From: a virus
Reading direction: 5' to 3' (one strand)
Virus record (IMG/VR): IMGVR_UViG_3300032282_004853
Coordinates: 1-47,160 of that record
DNA length: 47,160 nt
The translations under genes and the position numbers were made by a program. The notes under the pieces are model-generated. The model was not told where the DNA came from, ran no database searches, and worked only from the letters and a program-made list of their open reading frames with translations. Below, piece by piece: positions 8,775 through 36,753 of this stretch (the first letter of the stretch is position 1; every line of letters begins with the position of its first letter).

Positions 8775-8781
8775 GGCTTTG

Positions 8782-8810
8782 CCATTAACGTGTAGGCGAA
8801 ACGCTGTCAA
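8782..8810 (-). promoter_or_regulatory. Phage promoter element A (scaffold/capsid operon)
   Basis: The minus strand reads TTGACAGCGTTTCGC at 8810-8796, with a possible -10 TAATGG at 17-bp spacing (8787-8782). The scaffold ATG is at 8774, so the predicted transcript start falls within a few bases of it. A plus-strand TTGACA at 8818-8823 faces the other way, making this the divergent control region for the scaffold operon and the plus-strand cassette. Confidence 0.7.
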
Positions 8811-11324: not shown

Positions 11325-11328
11325 CAGT

Positions 11329-14981: not shown

Positions 14982-15010
14982 TCGTTATAGTGTAAGCGTT
15001 TCGCTGTCAA
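14982..15010 (-). promoter_or_regulatory. Phage promoter element B (portal operon)
   Basis: The minus strand reads TTGACAGCGAAACGC at 15010-14996. The possible -10 is TAACGA at 17-bp spacing, or TATAAC at 15 bp. The TGA stop codon of the 17-kb gene (15009-15007) is part of the TTGACA box. The central triplet is AAA here instead of TTT, which keeps the GCG-N3-CGC symmetry. Confidence 0.65.
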
Positions 15011-18000
15011 TTATGATCCGGAAAAAGCTGTTTTCTTTTTGCGAGATAACTCGGGGAGAAAATCCTCTGTTTTGCCTCGTGAGTTGCCGACTCAAAGGCG
15101 TTTTTCACCTTTTTGACGTCGTCCATGGTTGGATTGGCGGCATTTCTTGCGTTCACGATGCCGCGAAGTTTCACCGAGGCGAGTCGACCGGCCGCGATCC
15201 TGAATTTTTTGGTCTCCTCGGCGGTCATTTCCACGTTTTTACCCTTGGAATCCTTGAAGGTTGCCAAGGGCGCCTGCGGGGCCCATGCCTCCGTCGGGTT
15301 TGCCCTGTTCCAGTTCAGGAGAAGCTTGTCACTTGCACGAAGCGTCTCATCGGAAGCAATCGGTGTGCTGAAGAAGAGCCTTGTGATTGGATTGCCGGTT
15401 TTCTTGATTGGTTCGCCATAGGGGTTGATCTGCTCTTCGGCCATGCTTTGCGCCGGCAGCATGGTGTAGAGTGGCGAGGCGTGCTTGGAGTCCCGCACAT
15501 AATCATCCAGGGATCGGAGGGGGGAGCGGATGATGTTGGGCACGATGGCTTGGAGCACGCTCTTCTTAATCGCTTCAATGCGACCGGATTTACCCTGCAT
15601 CACATCGCTGATGGTGGAAGCGCCATTCAAGAAGGTTTTTCCATTGGCTTGGGCCAATATGTATCCAATAAAGGCGTCGGCGTTTTCAGATGTAGTGCCG
15701 TTTCTTTTGATTGCCCTGATCATGTCGATCGTGGTTCCGAGAACGGTTGCAATCGGCTCAATGCGCCCAAACGGAATTGTCACCCCGTTCCTGCCTCCGA
15801 TCCGGATCACGTATTCCCCGCCGAAAGCCCGATCATTAAGTCCACGAATACCGGCGCTTTCTTTGTTCCACGGGTGGCTGCCGGTGATGAGAAGCTGCTT
15901 GTCGTCGTCATCCTCATCTCCTTGGGCTGCTCCCCATAGAAGGGCTCCGACTCCCCAGGCAATCGCTTGCTCGGCAAGGTCTCGAACGGCTTCGGGATGC
16001 CCCTCCAAGTATGCCTTTCCGTTCTTCATGGAGTAGAGGCCCTTGGCGGCTTGGGCGGCCAAGTTAATAGCTCCAAGAGGGGATTTTCTGATCCCGATGC
16101 GGAAAATGTTGTAGGGGGTGCGAACGAACGGGAAGAAGACCCCGAGCAATTTATTGCTGTCGCGGGCGTCCTGAAGTTTGGCGGCCATGTCCTCAATCAT
16201 GTTCCCCCCATCGTCTCCTCTCTTGAGATCCTGCTGGAAGGTCATTTCACGGGCGCTATCAACTGCCCGCTGCCACGCTTCCTCGGTCCAGCCCGAAGCC
16301 TTGGCTGCTTCGTAAGCGGCCTGCTCACGGGCCATTTGCCATGCCTCGCTTCCCCGGTCTTCAATAAGCTCGTCCGGATCAAGGCTTTCATCCCTTCCGG
16401 CCAGTCTTTCTGCGAACCAGCGCACCGATTCCTTGGTAACGGCCACTCTGGACAGATTTTCGGCCACGACTTCCCCTCTTGTCTTGGAAAGGGTCTCGAT
16501 CCGGTCGCTTAGCGCTTTTCCAGAGAGTCCTTCAGCCTTGGCGATCCGGTAGGCCATGGCTCCCGCTTCCATCTGACCAAGCGCCCCTTTGAACATGGAA
16601 TCGGCAAAGGCGAGAGATCTCAGCGGAATGCGGATGAATTTCCCCTTTGCTCCGGAAATTGCCTGTCGGGTATTCGCTACTTTATCGAATTGAGCAAGCT
16701 CTAATGGGGTTCCGAGTACCGAGTTTTCAAAGAAATCATGCTCGGCGCTCCATGCTTTTGCTGCCAAGGCGTAGCCCCTTGCCAGCCCTGGCATGAGGCC
16801 CTTGGCGAACCATTGAAATTCACCAAAGCTAGCGGACTTCTTGTCACCGATTGCCAAGTTGACGAACGCCTCCATGCCGCGCTGCAGCGTGAGATTGAGT
16901 GCGGCGCTTCCAAGGTTTCCCGTGATGTTTGCCACATGGGTCAGTGGCCCCGAGAGAATTCCGGCAATCCATGCCTCGTATGCCTTATCAAAGAATCCTG
17001 CCTCTCCCTTGGCTTCTTTAATTGCCTTGGCAAGGCGCATGACGTGGACAGGATCCTCGACATTGAACTTCGGCTTGCCCTGCTTCTCATTGGAGACGAA
17101 TCCCAAGTTGGAGAGCCATTTCTGGAATTCTTCCTCGGCTGCCGTATCGCTCACCTTTTTCCCTGTGACCAAGGATGTTTTGTCAGCCTTTGCTCCGGCT
17201 TGGAATTTCGCAAAGTGATCCCTCCTGAGCTTGGCGATGGAGTCGTCTTTGATCTTCCGGATCTCGTCTACTTTAAGTCCTGTCGTTTTGGAGATGGCGT
17301 CCAGGGACTTGTTTTTCAAGATCATGTCGAAGGCCGTCCTCCGGAGATCCTGCGCCGAGGTCGCGGCCCTAGAGAGGAGCGAGCGGAGTTCGCTGATGAT
17401 CTTTTTGTCGGCAAGGCGCATTGTCACCCTTTCGGCCAGAATGTCTTCCGGGGTGATTCCGGCAGCCTTGAGCTTTTCCATGACGCGGCGCGTTTCCTCG
17501 TCGATGAGGGCGGATTGCTTAACCGGATCCCGCTCGGCTTTGATGGCTCTCTCGGCCTTCTTGCTCGGCTTGTACATCATGTCGATGAGGAAGTCACGGT
17601 GACGCTGGGCCGGGGTCATGAAGGGGTCGTATCCTGCTGCCAGCACTCTCCCGGCAGTGGATCTCAGTTCCCTATAGGCGTACTGAAACACATTGAAAGC
17701 CTTTATGTTCTCGTCGGTGGGCTCCTGGATCATCTTTTTGCTGAGCTTGTCGGCAATGATGCCAGCGGCCACGGTCTCCTCCGCTGTCAGGGAGCCTCCA
17801 GCGAGTCCCTTGCCTTGGATGTCAGCGCGAACGCGATCTGCATCCTTTCGGAGCATTCCTTGGGCAGCGTCCTCCCATTGGGCGCGGGTCTCTTTAGTTG
17901 TTGTATCGGTGTAGTATTGATCGACGGCGCGGGTCTCCGGGTTGCGCGCTCCGTAGGCAAGATCGGGTCGTCCGATCTGTTTCGGCTTTCCGCTACCTTC

Positions 18001-21000
18001 TTCACTAATGGCCTGATCCCTGAGACCACCAATCACGTCATGGTCAATCTCTTGATTGAGACCCCTCATGATGGAATCAATGTCATCATCTCCAGCGTCT
18101 TCCCTGAGTGCCCTTCTGGTAAGAAGCTCGTTGGTTGAGCTGATTCCGCGCTCTCCAAGTTTTCCTTGGAGCCGTCGCATTGCTGCTTTCTGGATGTTGT
18201 CGACCGCCTGTCTGGTGATTCCCATGCGGTTGGCAATTTCCTGTCCATTTTCCCCGCGAAGCATTCCCGTGAGCACATCGCTCATGCGCTCGGGAAGCTC
18301 CAAGATTGCCGACTCCAGAAGGCGACTTGATTCGTTTAGGGCCGCCTGATCCGGGGGGAGGGGAGTGTTTGCGTCGGCGAGCTGATCCTTGCGGGTGACT
18401 TCATTCCCTTGGGAATCGCTCCCGATTGGCTCATCCATGGTGGTCTGGTATCGCTCGGCATACCTGGACTCGACTCGATAGAGGTCGCGCAGGGCGTTTT
18501 TGGCCGCTACTCCAGCATAGGCCTCAAAGGGAACACCTTTGGTGGGATCAAAGTTTTTGGCCGCATTGGCAATGGCGATTCTGACCTTCTGGCGTGCGTC
18601 ATCGGCATTGTAGTTGGGCATTTCCGAGAATTGGGACGCTATCTTGTTGATGAGATCCTGTGATTCGCGGAGCCGTTGGGCGGGGCTCTTCAGCCCATCC
18701 TCGCGAGCCTTGTCAAAGTCCAGCGGGAGCTGATTTTCATCATCGGCGCGACGTGAATTCAACGCATCACCCTCATAGACTGAATCATGAGGCGTTGGCG
18801 ATGTGCTGATAATCCCTCTGCTGCTATGGGACGGAATATCGGAGGTGGCAACATCTAGGAGATAGACTCCGGCATTTGCAATTTCCCGGGTGGCACTGTC
18901 CTTGATGTATCGGGCGTCTTTGCTGTCTAACCCGGAAATGTCCAGGGCGATTCCAAATGGCGCTTCCCTTCCAATCCCGTCCATCAGGGCTTTCTTGAGA
19001 TTCGCCCAATCCGTTCCCTTGGGGACGCGCTCGACGGCCGTAATCCCATTCTTTGTTGTGAGATAAATGATGTGGGCGGTATCGGAGTCTACCCCTTGGC
19101 GAAGTTGGGAGACATAGGTTCCCAAATCATCGGATGTGATCTTCTGGAGCTTGTCCCTGGAGATGTTTTCCCAAGCGGCGATATCCTCTTTTGGCAGCGG
19201 GAGCGTTTCGTTTTTTTCAAACGAGTGGTAGGTTTGCCCATTGGTGATCACGTGATCCTTCAGGGAAATCCCCGCTGATGCCATGACCTCTCTTATAATT
19301 TTGGTCAGCTTCTTGTCGGCGCCGCTTGGCTCAGGGTTACCGCTGGGGTGGTTGTGCGCGATGAGTGCCGAAACCACATCAGGATTCTTTTGACGGGCAT
19401 CCTTTAGGGAAATCAGGATGTCCCTGCGGTTGGCATAGGAACTATCCAGCGTGCCTGCGGTGAGGATTTGGCTATGGATGACGTTATTGTCCTTATCAAG
19501 GAAGGCGACTTTTAGGCTCTCAAAGTAAGGAGAGCGAAGCGGCATCATCAGGGAGGCAAAATCTGCCGGCCCATTCAGGGTCTTTCCGTCGATATTGAAA
19601 GAGGGGATTTCCCTGGAAATCAGGGAGTGGACCAGCGAGGAGACCACGTTTCCCCGCCCGAAGGCTTTTTCGGGGTCTTGTGGAAGTCGAAGAATGTCTG
19701 TGTTCTTTTCCCCCGGTAGGCGTTCAATTTCATCCGATCCTCCTCCTGTCTTTCCAGGCTCCTCTGTCTCTGCTGGATTTCCCATATCTCCTCTGTCGAG
19801 GGATAGGGTTTCCCCTTTATTCCATGAGAAGAGGTCTCCGTACGCTGATCCCTCTTCTTGGAGTCGGCTGATTTCTTGGAGTTGCCTGGTGATTTCATGG
19901 GATACCTCTACAACCCTAGTACGATCCACCCCCCGTTCCGTCAGGTAGTTTTTTACCGAATCCTCATCGGGAATCGCTCTCCTGGATTGCAGGGAAACAC
20001 CTTTCTCTGTCGGCTCGGATTTGATTGTGCTGAAAAAGTCATCAAAGGCCTTGTTGATAGCCTCCCTTTCTGCGCCCTCGGGGAATGGTTTGACATTCCA
20101 CATCCGGTATCCTGGAAGCGTATTGTCGGCTCCGAAAGATAGGAAATCGCTCTTATCTCCATGTGCTGCGATCCTGTCCTCAACATAGGCCGAGAAGGCG
20201 CGGGCAGCCAATTCATGGGGTAGAGACCAGTAATCAGAGGCCGTGCCCTGATCCATCTTGGTAGCCTCCATCTTGTATCCGGTCGGCGTGTACTTGGTCT
20301 TGGATTCCCCGGCATTTGCCTGATTGAGGATATTGATCCTCTGATCGTAGCGCTTGAGGTATCCGGCCAGGTCATTTCCGATTCCGTTTTGCTGGGCATT
20401 GAATCCGCTGCGTCCGCGAATTTCCTTGTAGAGGTCGGAAATGGCATCAAGCGTGTCATTGCTCCAGCGCTGCCCGGGGAAGGTGAAGGATCGCGGCCTG
20501 ACCTTGGCATCCTTGTCGTACCGGAATTCGGTCTTTACGTCTCCGTCCAGGAGCTTGTCGGCAAGGGCGTCAAATCGGGCAAGTTGCGCCTCACTGGCCG
20601 GCTTGTTGTTGCGCTTGGCCCAAGTCAGCTCTTGAGTGAGCCCGTTTCGGATCTGTTGAAGCTTTTCGGAAAGCTGATCACGGGTGGATTTGACGAATTT
20701 CTCGGCCTGCTGCGTGTCCTCCTTGTACTCGACTGCCTTTTTGTCGATGGTCTGCATCAGTGAGCTAAATGCCTTCCTGAGCTCCTCCCTGACATTGCTG
20801 TTCACGCCGAATCCATGGGAGACAAAGGTTTTGTCGGCGCTGTTGACTCCGGTGAAGATCTTGGTGCCGTCCGGATTGACGGTCATCTCCCTCTTGGCCT
20901 TGCCGTCAAGGCGTCCCATGTAGTGATCAAGGGCATGGAACCATTCATGGGCCAGTGATCCGGCCCCCTTCATCTTGGTGAGGTTGATGACCGCGTAATC

Positions 21001-24000
21001 GGCCTCGTAATGGGCCTTGGCTCCGACAAGGCCTTGCCCGCGTGCTCCGAAAGCAAGGGCCAGCTCGCCGTTGAGACTCAAGGCCTGCGGGGGAACATTC
21101 AGAACCTCCGCTAGGTCATGGAGTCCATCGTAGGCGTGATTAAGAACCTCTTGGCGCTCCCTGTCGTCATTGCCTTGGCGCATCCAGTTGCCAAACTCCA
21201 CGCCACGGAATCCGAATGACTTCTGGAACATCTCGGGGGTTGCAGGCCCCTCGCGGCGGGGTGCTCCGGTGCGGACGGCATTTTCTGGTTTGGCAATGAG
21301 TTCTTCACGCCATCCAGTTTTTGTCTCGAGGATCTGGGCCGCGTGCTCGGCCATGTAGCGCATGGCGTCGTCGCGGGACGGGAAGCTCTCTTTGACAACC
21401 TGGACGCGCTTGCGGTCGGTAACATTTCTCCAGATGGAGAAGGTTCCGGTGCCTTTGCCATCTTCACCACGGGTCTCGTAGACGTTGTGATTGCGACTGA
21501 CGGCGATAAGAGGAATGGCTTTCTTGGCCTCCTCCTCGGTGGCAAAGCTGTTGCCGATCTGGCGATGACCCCAACGGCTCTCCTGCCTCAGGTCATAGAT
21601 GACATAGCGGCCATTTTCCCCCTCACGCATGCTGCGCTCGACCTTGGCAATCTGATAGCGGCGCTCCCATGCCGGACGCTCATCCACTGGTCGGGATACT
21701 GAAGATCCCGTCTTGATCGCCATATCCTTACGGGCCCCGCCGATCTTTTCACCAAAGTCGGTGATGCCTCCCTTGGCGGGAGGGGCCTTGATGGAATCCA
21801 AGGCCTTGGAAAGCAGCTCGGGCTGGGTATTTGCCAGGATGCTGTCTTTAGTGGCTGTGAGGGGTCTCTGACCGGCCTCAATGGCAAGCTGAGCCACTGC
21901 AGCCTCAGGGAGGGCGTCAAGGCGCTCCTGATTCTCATCTACTAATTTCGTACCAATTTGTGACGGATTAGTAGTTGGCACCTCTGAATCGCCTGCTGCG
22001 GCCGGTGCCTCAATCGGCCCTTCTGGAAGGGGTTTGCTCTCTGTTGTCGGCTCCTGCTTGCGGATGACCTGCCCCTCAAGGTTGAAAGGCATTTCCTCGG
22101 GCGGGAAGAGCTCAAGGGCCTGATTGGCTGTGAGTCCCAAATCCTGAATGGCTGCCTCCTGCTTGGCATGGGGGTCGGTTATCCCTTCGCTATCGAGCGC
22201 CTTACTGTATTTCTCCACCTCAGGCTTGGCTTCACTGAAAAGATCAAGCTGGGAGTCATCCTTGGTGGCGCGACGAGAGAACAGGGATTGCCCGCCCTCA
22301 ACAGCTTGCTGAAGCTCCGGCGTGATATTGATTTTCCAGACGGGGGTTTGGCCCCTTGCCATACCATCCCTTGCGTTATCGGCGGAAATATAATCAGGGA
22401 ATGGGCCAGCAACCCTTTCGCCAAAATGGCCTTTGGATAACCAAAACTCTTTTCCATCACCACTTACAGATAATCCTTTAATGGCTTCATCAGGGTTAGA
22501 AACAGCACTCTGCTCAACCTTTGCCCCCCACTTCTTGACATACTTGCCGATCTCTTTGGGAAGAATCTCGTCGTAGAAGCCCTTCATTCCCTCGCCACCA
22601 ACATCAAGGTTGGTTCCGCGAAGGTCGGTAGCTCCGGAAAAGCTATCTTTTCCACCCTCTCCATCAATGATCTTTTGGGCGACTTCCTTGCCGACATTAT
22701 CTGCCAATTCGGATTCAGGAATGGATGCGCCGAGCGTCTTCCATTCATCCCTGGCCCCCTTCCCGATGTACTTGATCAGATAGGTTCCATCATCTCTCTT
22801 GGCGTAGCGGAGCGCATCGACCTTTGTGGAAAGCTTGTAGCGTTCGGCCTGCGTGGATCCGCTGGTCCATCCGATCCATCCTTTTCCGCTGGAGACTGCA
22901 TCGCGCAAGGCCCTCTTGAACATTTGGAGCGGCCAGTCCTTGCGGAAGGGGGCATCAGGGATGGCGTTTTCCATTCCAAGCCAATTTAGATTTGCGCTTT
23001 TCTGGATTTCTTCTCGCTTTGCAAGCAGGACGGTTCTTTCTGCCTGTTCTTCTGGAGTTGCCTCTCTATTGGTGTATTTTTGATTAAGTTCAGCTATGCG
23101 AGGTTGAATCTCCTTTAGTAGCTCTTCCGCTTTCTTTCTGGATTCTGAAAAATCGCTATCACCAACATACCCCTTCTCTCGCCCCTGCTGATGCCTGTCA
23201 GACTGAATCTCCTCAATGAATAGGCCAGGTGTTCCCGACGAGTCAGTGCGCTCATTAAGGCGCATGTGGGCAACGTAATTGGGTGTTTCCGCAAAATGGG
23301 AGGAGCGATAAACCGGCTGGCTCGGAGTTGTGAGCATCTCGTCTTGTGAGGCTTTCCCAAGGAGTTCTTCTTTCGTTCCTGATCCCTCGCGGTAAACCCA
23401 TCCATTCCTGTCCCAGATATTCCAGGATCCATCTTCCATCTGGCGAGCCTCCATCCCTCTCTTTAAGGAAAGATCGCTGGAACCGGGCATCGTTAGAACT
23501 ACTTCCCTGTAGTTCTCGCCTCCGGGGATGGTGTACTGAGAATATTTTGCGGGGATCGGCTGACCGTAGTCCGCAAATTGCTTGGTTGGGTCACCTGCCT
23601 GTGTGGAGACCTCTTTGAACTGAACTTTACCGGCCCCTTGGAGATAATCCATGAGCGCCTGCTTGGGCACCTTTCCGCCGTTTCCTGACGCAAGCGTGTC
23701 GATTATGTCAGAAATCCCGCTCCATTTGATCTCCTCGGCCTTGATTCCGCTATCTGGCTTATTGATAAGGGCTTTGATCTGCTCTGGAGTTGCCGATTTC
23801 CCTTGGATCTTGGACGCAAGAACGTCTTCCAGCCTGGAATAGAAGCCTTGATCGTCTGTGGCTGCGCGTCGAGATTGCAGGGTATTTTCATCCCCACTGT
23901 TGACGGAGCCCATCTCCCTTCGTAAATTTTCAATTGAGGACGCAACCACTTGTCGGCGGATATAAGAGTCGGCCGGTGCGTAGCGATCGGGGTTTCTGGA

Positions 24001-27000
24001 TACCCCTTTCGCACCGCCCTCTTTAATTTCATATCCCGTCAGCACCCACGCTTTTTCGTTTCCGTGGTGCGTCAGCGAAAGAATCGCACGGTATCCGTTG
24101 TAATCGATGGATGCGCGTTCGTGTCCTTTGGGCCCGTAGATCCGGTTCATTTTCCCAAGGGCTGCGGCATTGATTGACCCCACGATGGCTGCAACAGGAT
24201 CTTCTCCGGCGATCATCCGTTTGGTGATGATGCCGTTGATTCCGCTTCCATTCTCGTAATCAAATTCTCTCGTTCCGTCCGATCCCATCGGGATGTAAAC
24301 GGTTCCGATATCAGGCCTGGTGAATGATCCCTCGGATCCATTGGTCAAGGCATCAATTGTAGATTGAAGCGCTTTCCGGTGTTCTTCCCCCCCGGGGCTC
24401 TGAATGGCCTCATTTTTTTCATTTTCCGATGCCATCCAGGGACGGAGCCTTGCGCGAAGCTCCTCGGCTGCCTGTTTGCTGGGGCTCTTTTCAGCCCTTC
24501 GGGAAAGCAGGGAAAGCTGGTTTGCTGGAGATGTGGGCGCGACCGGCTTGGCTTCCTCTTGGCTTTCCAGCGAGAAGGGGGCCTTGGTCTCGTCAAAGAA
24601 GCCCATGAAGTGCTGCCCTTGCGCTTTCTCAAGATTGGTGAGCTCATCGGTTTCGTAGCGATTGAGTCCCTCCTCTTGGCGCTTGCGGATGAGCTGGCGC
24701 ATCCGCTTGACGGGATCTCCTGCGCGACGGGATTGAACGTCTCTGGGATCCTGCGGCGTATTTTTCCTGAAGTGGGATTCAATTCCTGCTTTCAGGGTGT
24801 CACCCATCGTCCTGGCCCCTCCGAACATATCGGGCTCATCGGAGTGTTTTTTGATTGAGGTGGTAATGTCCCTCATCAGGTCTTCAAATCCCGCCACCGT
24901 GTCCTCGGCGTTGACCGGCTTGATGCCCTTCTTGTTCTGGGCATGGTATTCGACCTTTTTATCAAGGGCGGCTGCCAGCGCATTGATCGTGTCGCCGTCG
25001 GCACCCATTTCCGTCTGCTCTGCGGCCCTTCGGATTGCTTGGCCGATCCTGTCGCCGTTTTTGACGTACTCGACGACATTCTCGAGCATCCTCCCGATAG
25101 CCTCGGCAATATTCCCATGGCCGGCTTCACGCAGATGCAGGGCGGCGGATGTGGATGCCTTAATCAATCCCGTCACAGTTGCGTGACCGCTGGAAAGCTG
25201 GGACGAGGTAAAGAATTCGCCAAGCGCCTTGGATCGGAATGCCGCCGCAAGAAGGAGACGCTGCATGTAGAATTGCGCCTGGGTCGGGTTTTTGACGAGC
25301 CCCGCCATCAGATTGCGGTCCAGTCCCAGTTTCTCGCTGTCTTTTACCAGCCCGAGAAGCTCCGTGCGGGCCTGTTCGGCGCTCATGGTCAGCGGAAGGT
25401 TCACCAGCCTTTCGGCGGGGATCTTCAGGGCGGCATCAATATCTGCCCTGGAGGCCGTATCTTGGACGACCCCCTGATTCGGGTTGAGCTTGTCCACCAA
25501 TTGCAGGTAGGAGCGGTTTTGGGCCTCGTCGCGGAGATCGTAGACGCCAAGGAAGCGATAACCCCTCCATCCGTCCGGCATATCATGCAGTCCGTAGTGG
25601 GAGGCATTGTTTTTCCATGCTTGGGAAAGTCGCTCCTGATCTTCCGGGGAGGAGAGATTGATTCCCTGCTCCCTCCCGTTTCCTCCAGCCGTCTGAAGTT
25701 TTACCTGAAGCTTTCCGTTGGCATCGTTGAAGATCGTCATCACCACTTGGGGAGCCCCATCCGAGGCGCTCTTGGAATCGGTCACAATCGAGTCCTCATC
25801 CAGCGCTCCGGGGAGTGCCATCTGGCGCACTTTGTTCTGCTCCGTCTCGTCGTTGTGGTAAGAGCGGGTGTTTTCCCCGCCGTAGTTGGGATTCTTGTGG
25901 AAATCCTCTCCGGCGTGGGAGGTCTCCACTTCGCCCGGTGGTACGGCAATCATGACGGCCGAAATGCGCTCCCGGTTGGCACCAAGCACATAGGTTGTCT
26001 TCCCCATCTGGACTTTCTGAAGAAGCTCCTGGGCCTGCCCTTTGGCCTCTTCAGGAACCTTGGCGACTAACTGTTCTTTGTCGGCTGTGTTTTCCGCCCT
26101 CTTCTGAACGGCCTGATTGCGCCGTTCTTGGGCACGTTCTTGGGCGGCTTCACGCTCTGCCTTCTCGGACCGGAGCCGCTCCAGCTCGGCAATTAATTCT
26201 GGGGATTGGGCAGTGGCGGCTGGTTGTCCTTTTCCATCTCCAGAAGGCACTTCTGAAGGTGCTCCTCCCAGTCCTTTTGCTTCAGCGATCCCTGCGCCGC
26301 TTCCTGCATTTGCCTCCAGATTTCCGGAGTCGGCTTTCTGCATCGCAGGATTCCAACTTGCCTCCGTCGCGCCGACGCGGCCCTCTCCATCAATTCTTCC
26401 GCTGATAGCTCCTCCAGCGTTGCCGGTCTTGCTATCCGTCCGATTCCGATTGGCACGAATCCCATATCCCTCCTCATACGAACGCCGTAAGTTTTCGTCA
26501 ACCTGTGTTTGGAGGGATTTGATTGCCTCCTTGATTTGGGATCGAACCTCTTCGACTTGGGCAATATCGGAGTCTTTTGCGCCTCCGGCTTTGAGGTTTT
26601 CGGAGAGTTTGGAAAAATAGGAGAAAAGCTTGGAAAGGTGTTCCCTGATTGTCCTGACAATGTGCTGCCCAAGCGTCTGCTCGGTAATGATTTTGCCCCC
26701 AGCTACAGCATTTCCATCTTTATCAATCGCAAGATCGTGCTGGGCGAGCATCCGAAAAAATTCATGGCCCAGCTTCCAGGAAGGGGTGACTCCGGGTTTT
26801 TCACTGTAAATCCCATCAACATGATCGCGAAGTTCCTTGGGGAGTGAGTTGAAAATGTCGGCGGCGGACGAATCGGCGTGGTCATTCGTATCGGGAGTCT
26901 CCGGAATGTTGAGTTGTCGAGAAGGGTCATCCGCAAAGCTCTGAAGAATCCGGTCGCGCGTTTTCCCCTCAGCCATAGAGCGATCTGCAAGAATCTTTCT

Positions 27001-30000
27001 TCCGATGGCATGGATGCCCTCCTCGCTGAGCATGGACTCAGCCCGCTCTGGGTGATCAATCAGAACCTGGATGTTTTCCGTGGCAGGATCCAAAAGATCT
27101 CCAAGGCTGATACGCAGTTTATTGTCTGCGGTCAGTTCGGCTCCGCCCGAGCGTCGTTGCCCGTCATTGAAGGCGATTCCCTCAAAGGCATCATTCCACC
27201 TTGCGATTGCGGGGGCCAATTTATTGAGTGCTCTGGCGACATTCCTTCGCTGGATGGCGTTGAGGGGCTTTTTGCCAACTTTCACATTGGCTACATCCAT
27301 CTGACTGATCAGATTTTTCAGATTCTGGCCCTTGAGCTGCTCCGCGACATGGATGGGGGCGGTGATTTCATCCTGCTTTTCGGATCCACCCGCCTCATTC
27401 CATGATTTCAGGATGTCGGCCGGAGGTTTCCCATCACGGACATACTGACGGGCAAATGCCATGGAGTTGGCTGGCGTTGCCCCGGCCTCATTGCGAAGCC
27501 TTCTTGAAAGGATAATCGCCTGCTTGGTTTCCTTTGCCGACAAATCCCTGGTATCGGGCATGTCTGGGATGGAGTCGGCAGAAGAGGTTTCGGCATTGCT
27601 GTCCTGCGTCGGCTCTTGGGTTTCCCCTTCGGGCCTGATTCCAAGAATCTTTTGATTCTGCTTCAGGGCATCGGATTGGCGCTTGGCGTTGTTGGCTGCC
27701 GCCTGATCGGCGTATTGCTGGTGATTCTCGGGAGACTCATCAGGGAAGTTTGATTTCCAATAATCAGGACTCTCGTTTTCTGCTTGAAGCTGCTTGGGGA
27801 AAACTCCTCCATCCTTCTCAAAATCACCCGTGATTCTCTGGCGAAGCTCCTCATTGGTGATGTTGTCTGGATATGCCCCCTCTCTCAGGCCGGCGTAATG
27901 TTCGGCAACCGTTGAGTCCACCCCTTGGGCCTGCAGGATCTTGGAAATCATCTTCCCTCTCTTGGAAGACGGGGAAAGCGGGGGTTGGGGCTCAGGGGAG
28001 GGGATCTTGGCGGCGGCACCTCCGCCTTGGCTGCCAGGAGGCGTCAATGGTTCGCTGGGGCCTGTTGTCGCGGCAGGGGGTTCTTCATCATCGCTCCTCT
28101 TTTCGGAAATATCCCCTCCATCTTTGACGCGAACCATTTCTTGCCCGAATAGCAGGCCGTTTTCTTTGGTGAGACTTTCGGGATCCTTGTCGATCTGAAT
28201 GTTTTCAACCAACTGCCCTCGCGGGGTGAGAATTTCCCCATAACGGGTTCCGTCCCGATTCTTTTTGATGGTGATCGTGTAGTTCTCGCCAAAGGCATCA
28301 GGGGAAGTGAAAACATCCCCTTCTTTTGCATTGCTCCAAAGCGTTGATGCCCGCCGCTTCCTTTGCGCCATGGGCGCGTCATCGCTTAGTGGGGCTGGGT
28401 CTCCGGATGCTTCAGAGGAAGTTTCAATCGTTTGGCGATTCTCTCCACCTGGAGCTTGGTTTTCCCTCGCTGGATTTGACGTATCCCCAAGTTGTTGTGA
28501 TGTCGGCGGGTTTTCATTGGATGCTTCTCCAAAAATTCCATCGGCAGCGCTCTTGGCCTCTTTTCCCGTGATCCCGATCAGGTCAGCGGCGTGGGGGGCA
28601 ACTCCGGAGAGCCATTCTTTTGCCGTATCGGTAATGATCGTGTTCCCGTTGTGATCTTCGATAAAAGTCACTCCGGAGCTGGTTTTGGCTTTCCCGAGGG
28701 TCGCCCGCTCCGTCTCGGAGAGATCTTGGAATTTCACCCCTTGGGCTATTTTCACCAAGGCGCCCGCGAGGTCGGCCCTGCTTTCGGCCGGCACATTAAG
28801 CGGGTCGGCCTTGATGGCCGCATTGATCATCCCGATCTGCGCCTCAAGAATTTTCACCTGATCCCCGGGAGCGTTGGTGAGTTGGCTCATCAGCTCCGTG
28901 CGCCGTTTTACGAGATCCTTGGCCGTCGGCTGGGTATGGAGCGATGAAATCTGAGAGTCTGCCTGGGCAAGATCCTCCACTTTTCCGCTCCAGTCCTTGG
29001 GGATGTTGTATTTCTGCTTCAGTCTGGCGAGCTTGGCACCTCCTGCGGCGGCGGAGATCAATCCAAGGATGGCTCCGGAAATAGCCCCCGATTCGCTGGA
29101 TTCAGCGATTCCTGCAAAGAGGTCGCGATTCTCGTCATAGAAACGCTTGGCAATTGTGTTGTTGGCAATGGTTGTGGCGTCGTTAAGTGCGGTGAATGCA
29201 ACGGCTTCGCTGGCGGCTTTGACAAGGCCCTTGAGCACGGCGTTTTTGACCGGCTCGGCAAAGGTATTGAGGTAATGGCTGACCGGGATAACCACACCGG
29301 CCCCGACGACGCCACTCAGGAGGAAGGGAAGGAATGCTTCCTTTTCGGATTTTCCCATCTCGCGAGCCTCGGTGTATACAGAAGCTGCATTTTGGGCTGC
29401 TCCGACGGCTCCCGTGGCAGCTTGAGACAGAAAAGAGGCCACTTCGGCACTCATTCCTGCGGCCTTGGCTGCTTTTCCAACAATCGCTCCAGGGATAAGG
29501 AATCCAGCCAGCCCTCCGGCGTGTGCGGCGATATTGCCTGGGGTCGATTCGGCAAGTCGCGGGTCCATGGACTGCTCCTTGAGCGCATTGACTCCAAGCC
29601 CGATATCCTGCAGCCAATTACCCACGGCGTTGTCGGCATATCCGCCCGCATTGGCAAGAACGCCTGCGGTGGTTGCGAGGCTTCCTACGGTTGATGGAAC
29701 AAGCTCGTAGACAAACTTGGATGCGACATCCCCGATTTTCTCAATCATGGAGGGATCGGATTTCAGGAAGTCCAATGCCCTTGAGCGAAGTTCTTTGAGA
29801 TCCTCAGGATTGGAGGGGTTGAGTTCCGGGATGTATCCCGGAGTTTCAAAGTCCTTTTGCGTGATTTCGGGAGAAACCTTTTTCAGGAAATCGGGATCAT
29901 TTCGCATGATCCACCCCTTGAAGGAGTCGTTGATCAAGGTCTTGTCGATGATCCCTTCCTGAACAATCTGCGCCTGAGAGGCCATGCGCTTTGTCATGGC

Positions 30001-32193
30001 ATCCGCCTGCTCTTGGGTCAGCTTGCCGTCTGCTTGGGCCTTCTTGATCTGATCCTCCCATGACGGCATTCCCTTGGGCCTGAGACCCTCGGGGCGCATG
30101 GAGATGGGATTGATGGCAACGCTGCCATTGTGAAGAACTGCGTATCCGCTGCCGTCCTTGAAGGTCAGCTTCTTGTCGTCATCTTTAAGCTGCGCCTGCC
30201 TTTCCTTGATGGATTCCGCATTCGGGGATGCATCCAGTGCGGCCAACTTGGTTTTGGCCTCTTCCACTGCGGTGTTTTTCTCCTTGGAAGCCGCAATCTG
30301 CATTCCCGGGGATGCCATTGCTTGGAATCTCGCTTGGGCTTCAGTTCCATCTGCGATCTGACGCTCCAGATCTTCCCTCTGACGTGCCTTTTCAGTCAGG
30401 TCAGAGTCCGCCTTTTGCTTTTTGTCGAAATCTTCTTTTTTTGCCGTCTGGATACTTGAGGCAATAGCGTCCCGTTTTGCCTGAAGGTCGGCCTCGAGCA
30501 AGTCGCTGGCATTTTGTCTTTCCGTCGGATCGGTGATGGATTGCAGCTTGTTCCTGCGCTCGTTTGCATCCTGATCGAGCTGATCCAACTGATCTGCCAT
30601 GGGGGCGATTACGGGGTCTTTCCGCATCTGATCCCGCTGTTCCTGAACCTTCTGTTGCTGATTCCTGTTGAAGGCCTCAACGCCGGTCGTTAACTGCTGC
30701 GCCCGGGTATCGCGTTCGGCAATCTTTCGCTGTAGTTCTTGGCCGTCTGCTTGGATGGCTGCCGCTTCCTTGTCCCATTCGGCAATATCTGCGGCCGTTC
30801 CGCCTTTCTGGCGTTTTTCCGTGAGATCATTGATCCGCTGAGTGAGATCGGCATTGGCTGACAGGATGTCGACATTGGCCTGGCCGACCTGCTTGCCGGC
30901 CTCCTTGATGGCATCTTGGGCATCTTCGGGAGGAAGCGAAGCAATTGAATTGCGATACTCCTCTCGCTTGCGCTTGAGGTATCCGGCGGGACCTTCTTTT
31001 TTAAGCCCCTGATGCTTGATCGAAAGATCGAGCATTTCACTCCGCGCATCCTTGATCTGATCATCCGTTGCCAAAAGTCGCTCGGTGTCGGCAAGGCTCT
31101 TCTTGCGTTTTCCCTCGGATACTGCCCAGTCTGCCTGCGCCTTGGCGGTTGCCTCCTGATTGACGACGCCAAACATGTTGGTGACGGCTTTCGGGCGAGG
31201 GGTTGGAATACTAAGGCCCTCCTTTTTTTCTTCCTGCTTGGCTCTGGCAACGGCTGAAAGCCCGCCCGAAGGGATGGTGGCTGCTGGCGTGGTTGGTCCG
31301 CCCTCATCCGGCGAGTCGGAAATCTGGCTATTTTGCGCCGAATCTTGATCCGATGCCGGCAAATCCCTGCGTAGCTGCTGGATCTTGATCCCAAGATCCG
31401 CGTGCTGATTGGAAATCCCGCGCATTTCAAGCTGGTAAAGGTGCTTGGCACTGGCGATGGCAAGGCGATTATCCGAGCTAACCAAGCCCCCCTGTGCGTC
31501 AATTGTCTCCCAGGGAGTCAGCTTGGTTTTGCGATAGAGATTGGGGTCATTCGGATCATCGGGATTTGCTCCGTACTCGGCATCCTCATCGGGGTTCTTG
31601 ATTTTCTTGGAAAGAACGGTGGATGTCGTTCCGTCTGGATTGGTGATGGTCTTCGGGGCCTCGCCTCCCTCGTTGTAGACAACCTGATAAGGGCGTCCCT
31701 GAGCATCATACTGGACGGGGTGCTTGCGCTCTTTGACGGCCTGCTGGCCCGTCACGGGGTCGATCATGGGCGCGGCTACACCCTGCTCATTAAGCTCATA
31801 CTGGCGTCCTGTTTCCTGATTGTCGGCGCTGGCAGCCCGATTGATGGCCTTGCGCTGTGCCGTAAACGCCTCGCGGGCTTTTTGTCTCTCAAGGTTCCTG
31901 TTGTAGGCCTCTAACTGGCTGTTGTAGTGAATGTACTGTCGGACGGTTGCATCATCGTCATCCGGATTACTTGAGTAGTCAGGCTCTACCGGGGGAGTGA
32001 GTCTTTGCGGCGCTTGGATGTCTGGCTGATCCAGAGGCCTTGGCTGTGCGGCCAGATTTCCTGTATTGATTTTTGGAGATGGGCGAGGGGATGGAGAGTC
32101 ATTCCCGGGACTTTGGGATGAATTTTCGGAAGAATAATTGTCTTCCGTGGAACCGGGGGCGCCGTAGTCCTCCTCGTCGTCGTTAAGAGCCAT
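15007..32193 (-). CDS. Giant polyvalent virion protein (5728 aa) with embedded sigma-70 domain
   Basis: The largest gene in the window. Residues 1-860 are low-complexity and coiled-coil. About 870-1060 is Gly/Ala-rich and membrane-like (GGLAGFLIPGAIVGKAAKAA; LLSGVVGAGVVIPVSHYL). Near 1722 there is a degenerate zincin-like motif, SEEGIHAI. About 2070-2230 resembles the ddrB-ParB domain. About 2615-2725 resembles PBECR nucleases. The 2780-3230 segment carries the phage motif FIEEIQSDRHQ. LPD1 plus HEWFH lies at about 3650-3770, RadC/JAB at about 4205-4332 and a sigma-70 unit at about 4498-4685. The C-terminus (GILSGPLTHVANITGN; FFPFVRTPYNIF) is typical of phage polyvalent proteins. Such proteins are thought to be delivered with phage DNA. 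Seven SRRA/TRRA linkers separate the later domains and may be cleavage sites. Confidence 0.9.
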   Translation of the reverse strand: MALNDDEEDYGAPGSTEDNYSSENSSQSPGNDSPSPRPSPKINTGNLAAQPRPLDQPDIQAPQRLTPPVEPDYSSNPDDDDATVRQYIHYNSQLEAYNRNLERQKAREAFTAQRKAINRAASADNQETGRQYELNEQGVAAPMIDPVTGQQAVKERKHPVQYDAQGRPYQVVYNEGGEAPKTITNPDGTTSTVLSKKIKNPDEDAEYGANPDDPNDPNLYRKTKLTPWETIDAQGGLVSSDNRLAIASAKHLYQLEMRGISNQHADLGIKIQQLRRDLPASDQDSAQNSQISDSPDEGGPTTPAATIPSGGLSAVARAKQEEKKEGLSIPTPRPKAVTNMFGVVNQEATAKAQADWAVSEGKRKKSLADTERLLATDDQIKDARSEMLDLSIKHQGLKKEGPAGYLKRKREEYRNSIASLPPEDAQDAIKEAGKQVGQANVDILSANADLTQRINDLTEKRQKGGTAADIAEWDKEAAAIQADGQELQRKIAERDTRAQQLTTGVEAFNRNQQQKVQEQRDQMRKDPVIAPMADQLDQLDQDANERRNKLQSITDPTERQNASDLLEADLQAKRDAIASSIQTAKKEDFDKKQKADSDLTEKARQREDLERQIADGTEAQARFQAMASPGMQIAASKEKNTAVEEAKTKLAALDASPNAESIKERQAQLKDDDKKLTFKDGSGYAVLHNGSVAINPISMRPEGLRPKGMPSWEDQIKKAQADGKLTQEQADAMTKRMASQAQIVQEGIIDKTLINDSFKGWIMRNDPDFLKKVSPEITQKDFETPGYIPELNPSNPEDLKELRSRALDFLKSDPSMIEKIGDVASKFVYELVPSTVGSLATTAGVLANAGGYADNAVGNWLQDIGLGVNALKEQSMDPRLAESTPGNIAAHAGGLAGFLIPGAIVGKAAKAAGMSAEVASFLSQAATGAVGAAQNAASVYTEAREMGKSEKEAFLPFLLSGVVGAGVVIPVSHYLNTFAEPVKNAVLKGLVKAASEAVAFTALNDATTIANNTIAKRFYDENRDLFAGIAESSESGAISGAILGLISAAAGGAKLARLKQKYNIPKDWSGKVEDLAQADSQISSLHTQPTAKDLVKRRTELMSQLTNAPGDQVKILEAQIGMINAAIKADPLNVPAESRADLAGALVKIAQGVKFQDLSETERATLGKAKTSSGVTFIEDHNGNTIITDTAKEWLSGVAPHAADLIGITGKEAKSAADGIFGEASNENPPTSQQLGDTSNPARENQAPGGENRQTIETSSEASGDPAPLSDDAPMAQRKRRASTLWSNAKEGDVFTSPDAFGENYTITIKKNRDGTRYGEILTPRGQLVENIQIDKDPESLTKENGLLFGQEMVRVKDGGDISEKRSDDEEPPAATTGPSEPLTPPGSQGGGAAAKIPSPEPQPPLSPSSKRGKMISKILQAQGVDSTVAEHYAGLREGAYPDNITNEELRQRITGDFEKDGGVFPKQLQAENESPDYWKSNFPDESPENHQQYADQAAANNAKRQSDALKQNQKILGIRPEGETQEPTQDSNAETSSADSIPDMPDTRDLSAKETKQAIILSRRLRNEAGATPANSMAFARQYVRDGKPPADILKSWNEAGGSEKQDEITAPIHVAEQLKGQNLKNLISQMDVANVKVGKKPLNAIQRRNVARALNKLAPAIARWNDAFEGIAFNDGQRRSGGAELTADNKLRISLGDLLDPATENIQVLIDHPERAESMLSEEGIHAIGRKILADRSMAEGKTRDRILQSFADDPSRQLNIPETPDTNDHADSSAADIFNSLPKELRDHVDGIYSEKPGVTPSWKLGHEFFRMLAQHDLAIDKDGNAVAGGKIITEQTLGQHIVRTIREHLSKLFSYFSKLSENLKAGGAKDSDIAQVEEVRSQIKEAIKSLQTQVDENLRRSYEEGYGIRANRNRTDSKTGNAGGAISGRIDGEGRVGATEASWNPAMQKADSGNLEANAGSGAGIAEAKGLGGAPSEVPSGDGKGQPAATAQSPELIAELERLRSEKAEREAAQERAQERRNQAVQKRAENTADKEQLVAKVPEEAKGQAQELLQKVQMGKTTYVLGANRERISAVMIAVPPGEVETSHAGEDFHKNPNYGGENTRSYHNDETEQNKVRQMALPGALDEDSIVTDSKSASDGAPQVVMTIFNDANGKLQVKLQTAGGNGREQGINLSSPEDQERLSQAWKNNASHYGLHDMPDGWRGYRFLGVYDLRDEAQNRSYLQLVDKLNPNQGVVQDTASRADIDAALKIPAERLVNLPLTMSAEQARTELLGLVKDSEKLGLDRNLMAGLVKNPTQAQFYMQRLLLAAAFRSKALGEFFTSSQLSSGHATVTGLIKASTSAALHLREAGHGNIAEAIGRMLENVVEYVKNGDRIGQAIRRAAEQTEMGADGDTINALAAALDKKVEYHAQNKKGIKPVNAEDTVAGFEDLMRDITTSIKKHSDEPDMFGGARTMGDTLKAGIESHFRKNTPQDPRDVQSRRAGDPVKRMRQLIRKRQEEGLNRYETDELTNLEKAQGQHFMGFFDETKAPFSLESQEEAKPVAPTSPANQLSLLSRRAEKSPSKQAAEELRARLRPWMASENEKNEAIQSPGGEEHRKALQSTIDALTNGSEGSFTRPDIGTVYIPMGSDGTREFDYENGSGINGIITKRMIAGEDPVAAIVGSINAAALGKMNRIYGPKGHERASIDYNGYRAILSLTHHGNEKAWVLTGYEIKEGGAKGVSRNPDRYAPADSYIRRQVVASSIENLRREMGSVNSGDENTLQSRRAATDDQGFYSRLEDVLASKIQGKSATPEQIKALINKPDSGIKAEEIKWSGISDIIDTLASGNGGKVPKQALMDYLQGAGKVQFKEVSTQAGDPTKQFADYGQPIPAKYSQYTIPGGENYREVVLTMPGSSDLSLKRGMEARQMEDGSWNIWDRNGWVYREGSGTKEELLGKASQDEMLTTPSQPVYRSSHFAETPNYVAHMRLNERTDSSGTPGLFIEEIQSDRHQQGREKGYVGDSDFSESRKKAEELLKEIQPRIAELNQKYTNREATPEEQAERTVLLAKREEIQKSANLNWLGMENAIPDAPFRKDWPLQMFKRALRDAVSSGKGWIGWTSGSTQAERYKLSTKVDALRYAKRDDGTYLIKYIGKGARDEWKTLGASIPESELADNVGKEVAQKIIDGEGGKDSFSGATDLRGTNLDVGGEGMKGFYDEILPKEIGKYVKKWGAKVEQSAVSNPDEAIKGLSVSGDGKEFWLSKGHFGERVAGPFPDYISADNARDGMARGQTPVWKINITPELQQAVEGGQSLFSRRATKDDSQLDLFSEAKPEVEKYSKALDSEGITDPHAKQEAAIQDLGLTANQALELFPPEEMPFNLEGQVIRKQEPTTESKPLPEGPIEAPAAAGDSEVPTTNPSQIGTKLVDENQERLDALPEAAVAQLAIEAGQRPLTATKDSILANTQPELLSKALDSIKAPPAKGGITDFGEKIGGARKDMAIKTGSSVSRPVDERPAWERRYQIAKVERSMREGENGRYVIYDLRQESRWGHRQIGNSFATEEEAKKAIPLIAVSRNHNVYETRGEDGKGTGTFSIWRNVTDRKRVQVVKESFPSRDDAMRYMAEHAAQILETKTGWREELIAKPENAVRTGAPRREGPATPEMFQKSFGFRGVEFGNWMRQGNDDRERQEVLNHAYDGLHDLAEVLNVPPQALSLNGELALAFGARGQGLVGAKAHYEADYAVINLTKMKGAGSLAHEWFHALDHYMGRLDGKAKREMTVNPDGTKIFTGVNSADKTFVSHGFGVNSNVREELRKAFSSLMQTIDKKAVEYKEDTQQAEKFVKSTRDQLSEKLQQIRNGLTQELTWAKRNNKPASEAQLARFDALADKLLDGDVKTEFRYDKDAKVRPRSFTFPGQRWSNDTLDAISDLYKEIRGRSGFNAQQNGIGNDLAGYLKRYDQRINILNQANAGESKTKYTPTGYKMEATKMDQGTASDYWSLPHELAARAFSAYVEDRIAAHGDKSDFLSFGADNTLPGYRMWNVKPFPEGAEREAINKAFDDFFSTIKSEPTEKGVSLQSRRAIPDEDSVKNYLTERGVDRTRVVEVSHEITRQLQEISRLQEEGSAYGDLFSWNKGETLSLDRGDMGNPAETEEPGKTGGGSDEIERLPGEKNTDILRLPQDPEKAFGRGNVVSSLVHSLISREIPSFNIDGKTLNGPADFASLMMPLRSPYFESLKVAFLDKDNNVIHSQILTAGTLDSSYANRRDILISLKDARQKNPDVVSALIAHNHPSGNPEPSGADKKLTKIIREVMASAGISLKDHVITNGQTYHSFEKNETLPLPKEDIAAWENISRDKLQKITSDDLGTYVSQLRQGVDSDTAHIIYLTTKNGITAVERVPKGTDWANLKKALMDGIGREAPFGIALDISGLDSKDARYIKDSATREIANAGVYLLDVATSDIPSHSSRGIISTSPTPHDSVYEGDALNSRRADDENQLPLDFDKAREDGLKSPAQRLRESQDLINKIASQFSEMPNYNADDARQKVRIAIANAAKNFDPTKGVPFEAYAGVAAKNALRDLYRVESRYAERYQTTMDEPIGSDSQGNEVTRKDQLADANTPLPPDQAALNESSRLLESAILELPERMSDVLTGMLRGENGQEIANRMGITRQAVDNIQKAAMRRLQGKLGERGISSTNELLTRRALREDAGDDDIDSIMRGLNQEIDHDVIGGLRDQAISEEGSGKPKQIGRPDLAYGARNPETRAVDQYYTDTTTKETRAQWEDAAQGMLRKDADRVRADIQGKGLAGGSLTAEETVAAGIIADKLSKKMIQEPTDENIKAFNVFQYAYRELRSTAGRVLAAGYDPFMTPAQRHRDFLIDMMYKPSKKAERAIKAERDPVKQSALIDEETRRVMEKLKAAGITPEDILAERVTMRLADKKIISELRSLLSRAATSAQDLRRTAFDMILKNKSLDAISKTTGLKVDEIRKIKDDSIAKLRRDHFAKFQAGAKADKTSLVTGKKVSDTAAEEEFQKWLSNLGFVSNEKQGKPKFNVEDPVHVMRLAKAIKEAKGEAGFFDKAYEAWIAGILSGPLTHVANITGNLGSAALNLTLQRGMEAFVNLAIGDKKSASFGEFQWFAKGLMPGLARGYALAAKAWSAEHDFFENSVLGTPLELAQFDKVANTRQAISGAKGKFIRIPLRSLAFADSMFKGALGQMEAGAMAYRIAKAEGLSGKALSDRIETLSKTRGEVVAENLSRVAVTKESVRWFAERLAGRDESLDPDELIEDRGSEAWQMAREQAAYEAAKASGWTEEAWQRAVDSAREMTFQQDLKRGDDGGNMIEDMAAKLQDARDSNKLLGVFFPFVRTPYNIFRIGIRKSPLGAINLAAQAAKGLYSMKNGKAYLEGHPEAVRDLAEQAIAWGVGALLWGAAQGDEDDDDKQLLITGSHPWNKESAGIRGLNDRAFGGEYVIRIGGRNGVTIPFGRIEPIATVLGTTIDMIRAIKRNGTTSENADAFIGYILAQANGKTFLNGASTISDVMQGKSGRIEAIKKSVLQAIVPNIIRSPLRSLDDYVRDSKHASPLYTMLPAQSMAEEQINPYGEPIKKTGNPITRLFFSTPIASDETLRASDKLLLNWNRANPTEAWAPQAPLATFKDSKGKNVEMTAEETKKFRIAAGRLASVKLRGIVNARNAANPTMDDVKKVKNAFESATHEAKQRIFSPSYLAKRKQLFPDHN
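17224..17376 (-). other. Second HTH-like segment in the giant protein (residues ~4940-4990)
   Basis: The segment FDMILKNKSLDAISKTTGLK continues into VDEIRKIKDDSIAKLRR. It has the helix-turn-helix rhythm and the basic recognition-helix end seen in sigma region 4 and related activators. It lies about 250 residues after the sigma-70 unit, in the C-terminal segment. It could be a second DNA-binding element or a diverged duplicate. The evidence is pattern only. Confidence 0.4.
18139..18702 (-). other. Sigma-70 family domain within the giant protein (residues ~4498-4685)
   Basis: Region 2 is recognised in IASQFSEMPNYNADDARQKV followed by AAKNFDPTKGVPFEAYAG (FDPTKG at residue 4548) and AAKNALRDLYR. 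This matches the core-binding and -10 reading helix of sigma factors, compare the FDPxRGxxFxTYA signature. Region 4 begins LPERMSDVLTGMLRGENGQE (residue 4633) and continues IANRMGITRQAVDNIQKAAM, then RRLQGKLG, a classic -35-binding helix-turn-helix. The unit is bounded by NSRRA at 4480 and LTRRA at 4692. Region 3 is reduced to a linker of about 50 residues, as in ECF-like or minimal sigma factors. Confidence 0.85.
19198..19581 (-). other. RadC/JAB metalloprotease-like domain within the giant protein
   Basis: Residues ~4205-4332 contain the JAB/RadC zinc motif HNHPSGNPEPSGADKKLT, with HNHPSG at 4280-4285. Before it come the usual strand FLDKDNNVIHSQILTAGTLD and the helix containing IAHNHP; after it comes MASAGISLKDHVITNG. 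The H-x-H-P-S-G and downstream D are those of RadC-type JAB domains, which are known components of phage and plasmid polyvalent proteins. It lies between linkers at 4070 and 4480. Confidence 0.85.
20884..21246 (-). other. LPD1 plus HExxH zincin-like domain within the giant protein
   Basis: Residues ~3650-3770 include FGFRGVEFGNWMRQ (starting near 3660), the hallmark of the large polyvalent protein-associated domain LPD1. About 75 residues later comes AHEWFHALDHYMG, whose HEWFH (3749-3753) is a zinc-metallopeptidase HExxH motif. Upstream is DFGEKIGGARKDMA, also typical of these proteins. It is a candidate for self-processing of the polyprotein, which is untested. Confidence 0.75.
24019..24351 (-). 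other. PBECR-type nuclease-like domain within the giant protein
   Basis: Residues ~2615-2725 have the order seen in phage Barnase-EndoU-ColicinE5/D-RelE-like (PBECR) domains. A strand GTVYIPMG is followed by a GINGIITKRM helix, then a segment ending in ERASIDYNGYRAILSLTHHG and KAWVLTGYEIKE. It lies between SRRA linkers at 2564 and 2774. Catalytic residues cannot be fixed by eye. Confidence 0.55.
25504..25986 (-). other. ddrB-ParB-like domain within the giant protein
   Basis: Residues ~2070-2230 contain VMIAVPPGEVETSHAGEDFH followed by KNPNYGGENTRSYHND and, further on, ALDEDSIVTDSKSASDGAPQ. This spacing (ETSH, NPxY, then SxSADGAP) corresponds to the ParB-superfamily domain named after P1 DdrB and common in polyvalent proteins. 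It may act on DNA during entry. The assignment is by motif memory. Confidence 0.6.
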
Positions 32194-33370: not shown

Positions 33371-33400
33371 GCAATAGACCCGCAAGCGAAACGCTGTCAA
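33371..33400 (-). promoter_or_regulatory. Phage promoter element C (ejection/giant-protein operon)
   Basis: The minus strand reads TTGACAGCGTTTCGC at 33400-33386, with a possible -10 TATTGC at 18-bp spacing (33376-33371). The next gene starts at ATG 33348. The intergenic stretch 33349-33456 also separates the divergent plus-strand secreted-protein gene. No comparable plus-strand promoter is obvious. Confidence 0.65.
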
Positions 33401-36724: not shown

Positions 36725-36753
36725 GTCCTAACCAGTCAGCGAAACGCTGTCAA
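36725..36753 (-). promoter_or_regulatory. Phage promoter element D (terminase operon)
   Basis: The minus strand reads TTGACAGCGTTTCGC at 36753-36739, with a possible -10 TAGGAC at 17-bp spacing (36730-36725). The DUF3431-like gene starts at 36717, so the message would be nearly leaderless, as at element A. Confidence 0.7.

Follow-up and report, generated by a model that had tools for sequence, protein, structure and literature searches.

A sigma-70 unit embedded in a giant, cysteine-free polyvalent protein of metagenomic phages

The embedded sigma-70 unit and its predicted fold

A giant open reading frame (ORF) in a metagenomic phage record contains a genuine sigma-70 unit (residues 4512 to 4676), comprised of sigma region 2, a linker resembling region 3.2, and sigma region 4, without region 3.1. 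The record is an IMG/VR entry of 47,160 bp, the whole of which was analyzed and is here called the window; the ORF runs on the minus strand from position 32193 to position 15007 and is free of stop codons for 5728 codons (Table 1). The first-pass annotation had called a sigma-70 factor at residues 4498 to 4685. This stretch corresponds exactly to positions 18702 to 18139, both of the motifs cited for it are present, and Pfam and NCBIfam models score over their cut-offs within it. An embedded sigma unit also was found inside a giant ORF in six further IMG/VR contigs, at 25 to 69% identity to that of the window.

Table 1. Features of the giant ORF and its surroundings in the window
Feature	Residues	Positions	Strand	Basis or remark
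Giant ORF, 5728 aa, cysteine-free; polyvalent cargo arms and ejection-type C-terminal module		15007..32193	-	
376-aa gene, cysteine-free, immediately upstream of giant		32218..33348	-	
Sole strongly hydrophobic segment of giant	951-975	29269..29343	-	Kyte-Doolittle scan
S/TRRA motifs	2488, 2564, 2774, 3306, 4070, 4480, 4692	within 15007-32193	-	
CLCA_X-like stretch with HEWFH zincin motif	3642-3761	20911..21270	-	NCBIfam E 1.2e-35, under the model's cut-off
RadC-like JAB domain, module preceding sigma unit	4209-4328	19210..19569	-	Pfam E 1.7e-24
SRRA just ahead of sigma unit	4480	18745..18756	-	
Sigma region 2	4512-4577	18463..18660	-	Pfam PF04542 over cut-off; structure match
Linker like sigma region 3.2 ('DEPIG...'), 51 residues, without region 3.1	4578-4628	18310..18462	-	phmmer
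Sigma region 4 with helix-turn-helix	4629-4676	18166..18309	-	Pfam PF04545 over cut-off; family-only model
TRRA just past sigma unit	4692	18109..18120	-	SRSA in L001/L002
Second, weak sigma4-like helix-turn-helix, ~260 residues past sigma unit	~4943-5003	17185..17367	-	
Conserved C-terminal module, homologous to CRP-361 gp38	5055-5532	15598..17031	-	blastp, family profile
TTGACAGCGNNNCGC before tail gene		2814..2828	-	
TTGACAGCGNNNCGC before scaffold/capsid operon		8796..8810	-	
TTGACAGCGNNNCGC before portal gene		14996..15010	-	overlaps giant's stop codon
TTGACAGCGNNNCGC before 376-aa gene and giant operon		33386..33400	-	
TTGACAGCGNNNCGC before gene 36109-36717 (DUF3431)		36739..36753	-	upstream of terminase

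The profile search that had been proposed as a check recovered Sigma70_r2, Sigma70_r4, and TIGR02937, all over their curated cut-offs. Sigma70_r2 (PF04542) matched with an E value of 1.6e-7 (31.4 bits against a cut-off of 24) and Sigma70_r4 (PF04545) with an E value of 1.1e-6 (28.5 bits against 24.1), and the NCBIfam sigma70-ECF model TIGR02937 scored 68.3 bits (cut-off, 42.9). The unit also was matched by PHROG 351, "RNA polymerase sigma factor" (E of 1.7e-20), and by the PDB sequences of FliA, WhiG, RpoS, and SigA (best E of 1e-6). TIGR02937 exceeded its cut-off in each of the four lineages that carry the unit (54.0, 48.4, 67.7, and 50.4 bits), with the same domain order and spacing, and PF04542 did so in contigs L001, L002, L151, L152, and L153; for region 4 of L153, support came only from TIGR02937 and the family profile. 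The PDB, Pfam, PHROG, and NCBIfam scores, together with the recurrence in four lineages, rule out a chance or low-complexity match.

The unit has an ECF-like two-domain layout of regions 2 and 4 only, with no region 1.1, 3.0, or 3.1, and TIGR02937 spans its full length. Region 3 gave no match in the own-record search, and the TIGR02980 match skips it. The linker was aligned by phmmer with residues 225 to 318 of SigA, the region 3.2 stretch that precedes region 4; although two-domain, the embedded unit is, judged by this linker, no typical ECF sigma factor. The second sigma4-like helix-turn-helix farther along the protein drew no Pfam match in the window, and the equivalent stretches of L150 to L152 matched the sigma profile with E values of 5e-5 to 2e-4.

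Structure prediction of the sigma region, another check that had been proposed, returned a fold with both sigma2 and sigma4. The alignment behind the first model (mean pLDDT of 75) included bacterial sigma factors. Its sigma2 domain superposed with an rmsd of 1.2 to 1.3 Å over 74 to 75 residues on the N-terminal domain of SigE and on the sigma70 fragment 1sig, and its sigma4 domain resembled SigL. As a guard against circularity arising from the sigma factors in that alignment, a second model was built from the window, L001, and L002 only. The confidence of this family-only model was lower (mean pLDDT of 65, with region 4 at about 80 to 86). Its best 50 PDB rows in VIA-align were all sigma factors or sigma-RNA polymerase complexes, and region 4 matched region 4 of SigL, SigE, SigR, and BldN. 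Z values reached 10.9, a size that is not decisive alone for helical proteins, and the case rests on the uniformity of the list together with the sequence evidence. The second prediction argues against the fold being an artefact of bacterial sigma factors in the alignment.

The giant protein and its relatives

The giant ORF is flanked by the 376-aa gene on one side and the portal gene on the other; the terminase lies upstream and the tail and capsid genes farther downstream. A short gene occupies a comparable place in records G001 and G004 and does not align with the 376-aa gene. Pfam and NCBIfam analysis revealed RadC, LPD1, sigma, LPD5-like, and CLCA_X-like zincin domains in the window giant, a combination that classes it as a polyvalent protein. 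The giants of the relatives contain ddrB-ParB (L002), helicase parts (L151 and L152), or MuF_C and ART (L153). The HEWFH-bearing CLCA_X-like stretch is a candidate processing peptidase, and the hydrophobic segment is a candidate for membrane contact. No RNA polymerase was matched in the giant by Pfam, PHROGs, or NCBIfam, nor in the 20 other ORFs scanned, which makes host core RNA polymerase the obvious partner of the sigma unit.

Several other features of the window were recorded. An inverted-orientation gene cassette lies between portal and scaffold, alike in both phages, in the window (8773 to 12387, plus strand) and in L001 (8948 to 11735, minus strand). The record opens with a 9-bp perfect tandem repeat, GGGATGAAG (positions 1 to 78), and a 32-bp direct repeat occurs in the right-hand gene block as two identical copies with 1.2 kb between them (41252 to 41283 and 42435 to 42466). 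Beside the virion genes, a predicted protein starting with a long Asn-Ser repeat is encoded on the minus strand at 4446 to 4985, adjoined by acidic repeats at 5130 to 5276.

The C-terminal module of the giant matched gp38 of Roseobacter phage CRP-361 (blastp E of 5e-15; family profile E of 2e-16). In the T7-like genome of that phage, the gene for gp38 comes after the one for tail tubular protein B, and gp38 matches PHROG 6651, "internal virion protein," with an E value of 6e-54. The window protein itself had no direct match to PHROG 6651 at an E value of 0.01 in a single-sequence scan; the link runs via its relatives. The podovirus MW202801 also has a similar relative. The sigma unit is absent from gp38, from the MW202801 relative, and from the distant L160, and because these smaller relatives have the ejection module without it, the unit looks like acquired cargo.

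Cysteine is missing from all 5728 residues of the window giant, where about 64 would be expected from the other genes (Poisson probability of about 1e-28). The giants of the other lineages contain none in 4860, 4234, and 4396 residues, giving about 19,200 residues over four lineages; cysteine in other genes is near 1% or above. The giant fragments of L001 and L002 have one and two cysteines, respectively. Cysteine is likewise lacking in gp38 and in the polyvalent giants encoded by phages Y3 and Y11. Across different phages, cysteine is wholly absent from giant or internal proteins at 15007 to 32193 of the window, 6396 to 16661 of L009, 9282 to 19400 of L028, 10051 to 13980 of L161, and 13225 to 16590 of L162. 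The N4-like virion RNA polymerases (vRNAPs), of about 3400 aa, are cysteine-free, a property tied to their passage through the tail and periplasm (PMC3715699, PMC3915230). The homology to a T7-type internal virion protein and the zero cysteine count support a virion role for the giant, and we infer that it is packaged and ejected. Cysteine absence appears to mark ejected proteins in general, and a cysteine-free sequence combined with an ejection module and cargo offers a practical rule for spotting injected proteins in metagenomic phages.

With the sigma unit as the query, only two close relatives were found, L001 and L002 (71% identity); with the C-terminal module as the query, four more contigs were found (L150 to L153; 36 to 41% identity). 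Open frames on the latter reach 4239 to 4928 aa, and each giant ORF holds an embedded sigma unit (profile E values of 1e-37, 1e-37, 1e-33, and 1e-16), in agreement with a whole-record search. All six contigs with a strong C-terminal-module match carry the unit in the same giant ORF. We counted four lineages: the window with L001 and L002; L150 with L151, whose sigma units are identical and were counted once; L152; and L153. The records G001 and G002 belong to the L150/L151 lineage, G003 to that of L152, and G004 to that of L153. All relatives are metagenomic contigs, some of them fragmentary.

In a tree with sigma genes of bacteria and phages, the six embedded units group as one clade (support, 89/88). 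Matches to the unit on bacterial genome contigs (41 to 76% identity across short segments) are stand-alone sigma factors, which, with the separate clade of the embedded units, rules out bacterial contamination or a prophage sigma gene. An alignment-based scan of genome contigs for the unit gave no lead, and a plasmid scan returned one host SigE.

The unit precedes the conserved module by about 400 to 620 residues in three lineages and by about 1000 in L153, and this difference in distance points to a movable module. The RadC module upstream of sigma has been swapped in L001 for a HEWGH-bearing module, with sigma retained; in a comparison of L001 1 to 2500 with L002 6000 to 7500, RadC is present in L002, as in the window, and the rest is near-identical. 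Between the sigma unit of the window and those of L001 and L002, pN is about 0.18 and pS about 0.78 (saturated), values by which the unit is under purifying selection. The low pN against a saturated pS, with retention in four lineages, rules out a decayed passenger.

Putative delivery and mode of action

Taken as a whole, the data make it somewhat probable, in our view, that the giant is ejected, with a sigma module through which host core RNA polymerase is engaged and brought to the incoming genome. In this reading, the 5728-aa protein would serve as an ejection (internal) protein of the virion, with polyvalent cargo domains strung along its extended N-terminal part; the cargo domain adjoining the ejection module would be a compact sigma factor made up of sigma2, the 3.2-like linker, and sigma4. 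The giant would enter the cell with the DNA upon infection, and the sigma module, either attached or freed at SRRA-type linkers, would engage the clamp and flap of the polymerase. The enzyme would thereby be guided to the incoming genome and, most likely, to early promoters of the phage whose specificity differs from the housekeeping type. A more tentative proposal, which we place just short of probable, is that the sigma factor is delivered by the virion and reprograms host core RNA polymerase as soon as infection begins. Together with their DNA, the phages may bring in a transcription switch of their own.

Release of the sigma module is only a suggestion. S/TRRA motifs occur seven times in the giant, versus 0.27 expected on shuffling, and are found at the joints of recognized domains. 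Cleavage at the two that flank the unit would free a sigma factor of about 210 residues; this pair is suggestive in the window only, and release is uncertain because the upstream SRRA is missing in L001 and L002. Zincin-type peptidases have been proposed to process polyvalent proteins (Iyer et al. 2017, PMC5512222). Polyvalent giants of three other phages (Y3, Y11, and Dfl-JY45) have LFSR-like variants. S/TRRA-type motifs possibly are a common processing or boundary signal.

Contact residues were mapped on segments of RpoD, in which D403 and Q406 contact core, W433/W434 act in -10 melting, and E585, R588, and Q589 read the -35 element. By this mapping, which serves as a lead, D403 is kept in six of six embedded units and Q406 in five of six, and E407, W433/W434, and three of the four -35-reading residues are changed. 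The -10-melting and -35-reading residues also differ among lineages, and a recognition stretch in region 4, [TSP][RK]Q[AG]V, is common to the units. Since D403 and Q406 are kept while promoter-contact residues are changed, the pattern suggests core binding with an altered promoter preference; given how changed and variable those residues are, promoter-specific action could be lost.

Other roles for the unit were weighed against these observations. Conservation is higher at D403 and Q406 than at the promoter-contact residues, and the unit adjoins the ejection module in three of the four lineages; on these grounds it might hold host core RNA polymerase at the ejecting DNA end, for example, in transcription-aided genome entry, without choosing promoters. 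However, both DNA-binding domains, and not sigma2 alone, are kept in all four lineages, and region 4 shares its recognition stretch; we regard such tethering as unlikely, if the likeliest of the alternatives. A purely structural or DNA-binding role, in which the sigma fold now serves to retain DNA or protein inside the capsid and contact with RNA polymerase is lost, would agree with the loss of two sigma70 features, the WW dyad and the acidic residue E407, and with the nearby second helix-turn-helix, which fits a DNA-binding string. It is less likely again, since the 3.2-like linker and D403/Q406 are kept and the best 50 structural rows are all sigma factors. A sigma fold with altered promoter-contact residues might instead compete, once injected, with host sigma for core RNA polymerase and shut down host transcription, and polyvalent proteins have been proposed to target host functions (PMC5512222). 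Internal virion proteins, however, are few per particle (N4 injects four vRNAP molecules [PMC4496689]), too few to titrate the RNA polymerase pool; such numbers would be enough for a specificity factor and insufficient for a stoichiometric inhibitor. We therefore consider a decoy more doubtful than either of the preceding roles.

The minus strand has five perfect TTGACAGCGNNNCGC elements, one each ahead of the tail, scaffold, portal, and 376-aa/giant genes and the gene at 36.7 kb. A TAA lies near a 17-bp spacing beside most of them, and a MAFFT alignment of their flanks revealed no conserved -10 beyond this TAA. They also precede portal and scaffold in L001 and L002 (L001 6205 and 12319; L002 11873) and occur in G002 and in G001 (18543, 19266, 19819, 30175, and 55249), where one precedes the giant-bearing operon. 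In G001 the elements form a full dyad, TGACAGCG-N3-CGCTGTCA, which overlaps a consensus host -35. None was found in the G003 and G004 records, whose lineages have kept the sigma unit. That the sigma unit acts on the five virion promoters named in the first-pass annotation is not supported, given the dyad symmetry, the position over a host -35, and the absence from two unit-bearing lineages. The elements look like operators of a dimeric regulator on host-type promoters, which fits them better than does a site for the embedded sigma; the dyad symmetry and absence from two lineages favor this reading, and the dyad conserved in two divergent lineages probably marks the regulon of a dimeric phage regulator.

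These elements bear on a further alternative, in which the giant is synthesized after infection and its unit directs late phage genes inside the cell, with packaging incidental or absent. Repeated TTGACA-type elements do precede the virion operons, the giant's own included. Their operator-like dyads and their absence in two unit-bearing lineages speak against it, as do the cysteine avoidance and ejection module, which argue for delivery, and we consider a late-acting sigma factor the least likely of the roles weighed. No promoter set fitting the sigma unit was found: a scan for consensus sigma70 promoters in the right half of the window gave results below those of shuffles, and a viral-contig scan with the element plus TAA gave at least 119 single, chance-like matches.

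Comparison with known systems

Early transcription in phages relies on the unchanged host holoenzyme or on a whole polymerase carried by the phage itself (N4 and phiKZ), and T4 Alt is a covalent modifier carried in the particle. If the proposed delivery is true, the embedded unit would add a third route by which a particle supplies transcription specificity, next to whole virion polymerases and covalent modification of the kind done by T4 Alt. With a sigma domain placed in an ejection-type protein, such phages would take a middle course and bring the specificity subunit alone.

The family shares RadC, LPD1, LPD5, ddrB-ParB, zincin, ART, and MuF_C domains in giant ORFs with the polyvalent proteins known from phages and conjugative elements (Iyer et al. 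2017, PMC5512222). That catalogue covers 131 polyvalent-protein domains, and the word "sigma" occurs nowhere in its text. The first-pass annotation had named no described case of an embedded sigma unit, and in the open-access PMC text (without figures or supplements), we likewise found none in polyvalent or ejected phage proteins. The sigma unit extends the polyvalent repertoire with a domain that would be aimed directly at host RNA polymerase. gp38 of CRP-361, a T7-type internal virion protein (PHROG 6651), has the homologous C-terminal module, is cysteine-free, and lies in a virion gene context; gp38, however, has 1309 aa and no sigma unit, whereas the cargo of the window protein adds about 4500 residues.

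Stand-alone phage sigma factors (SPO1-like, those of Rhizobium phages, and PHROG 351/1740) and ECF-type factors share the sigma2-sigma4 order of the embedded unit, which itself exceeds the TIGR02937 cut-off. Unlike the unit described here, which lies inside a giant protein and has a 3.2-like linker, they are separate genes of about 200 to 250 aa, some reaching about 600 aa. MzaA of the MZA anti-phage system (NF041931, a 726-position model) likewise has a sigma-70 domain as one part of a larger multidomain protein. The L152 unit matched NF041931 weakly (E of 4.7e-9; cut-off, 800 bits), with the sigma2 part alone matching, and MzaA is a host defense protein rather than a virion component.

The N4-like vRNAPs of the Schitoviridae are likewise giant, cysteine-free, and of polyvalent type; they exceed 3000 aa, are carried in the virion, and are tied to early transcription (PMC3715699, PMC3915230, PMC4496689). 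Their single-subunit RNA polymerase domain had no match in the window giant. Unlike the vRNAPs, each of which is a whole polymerase, the giant would contribute only a specificity-type subunit that needs the host enzyme.
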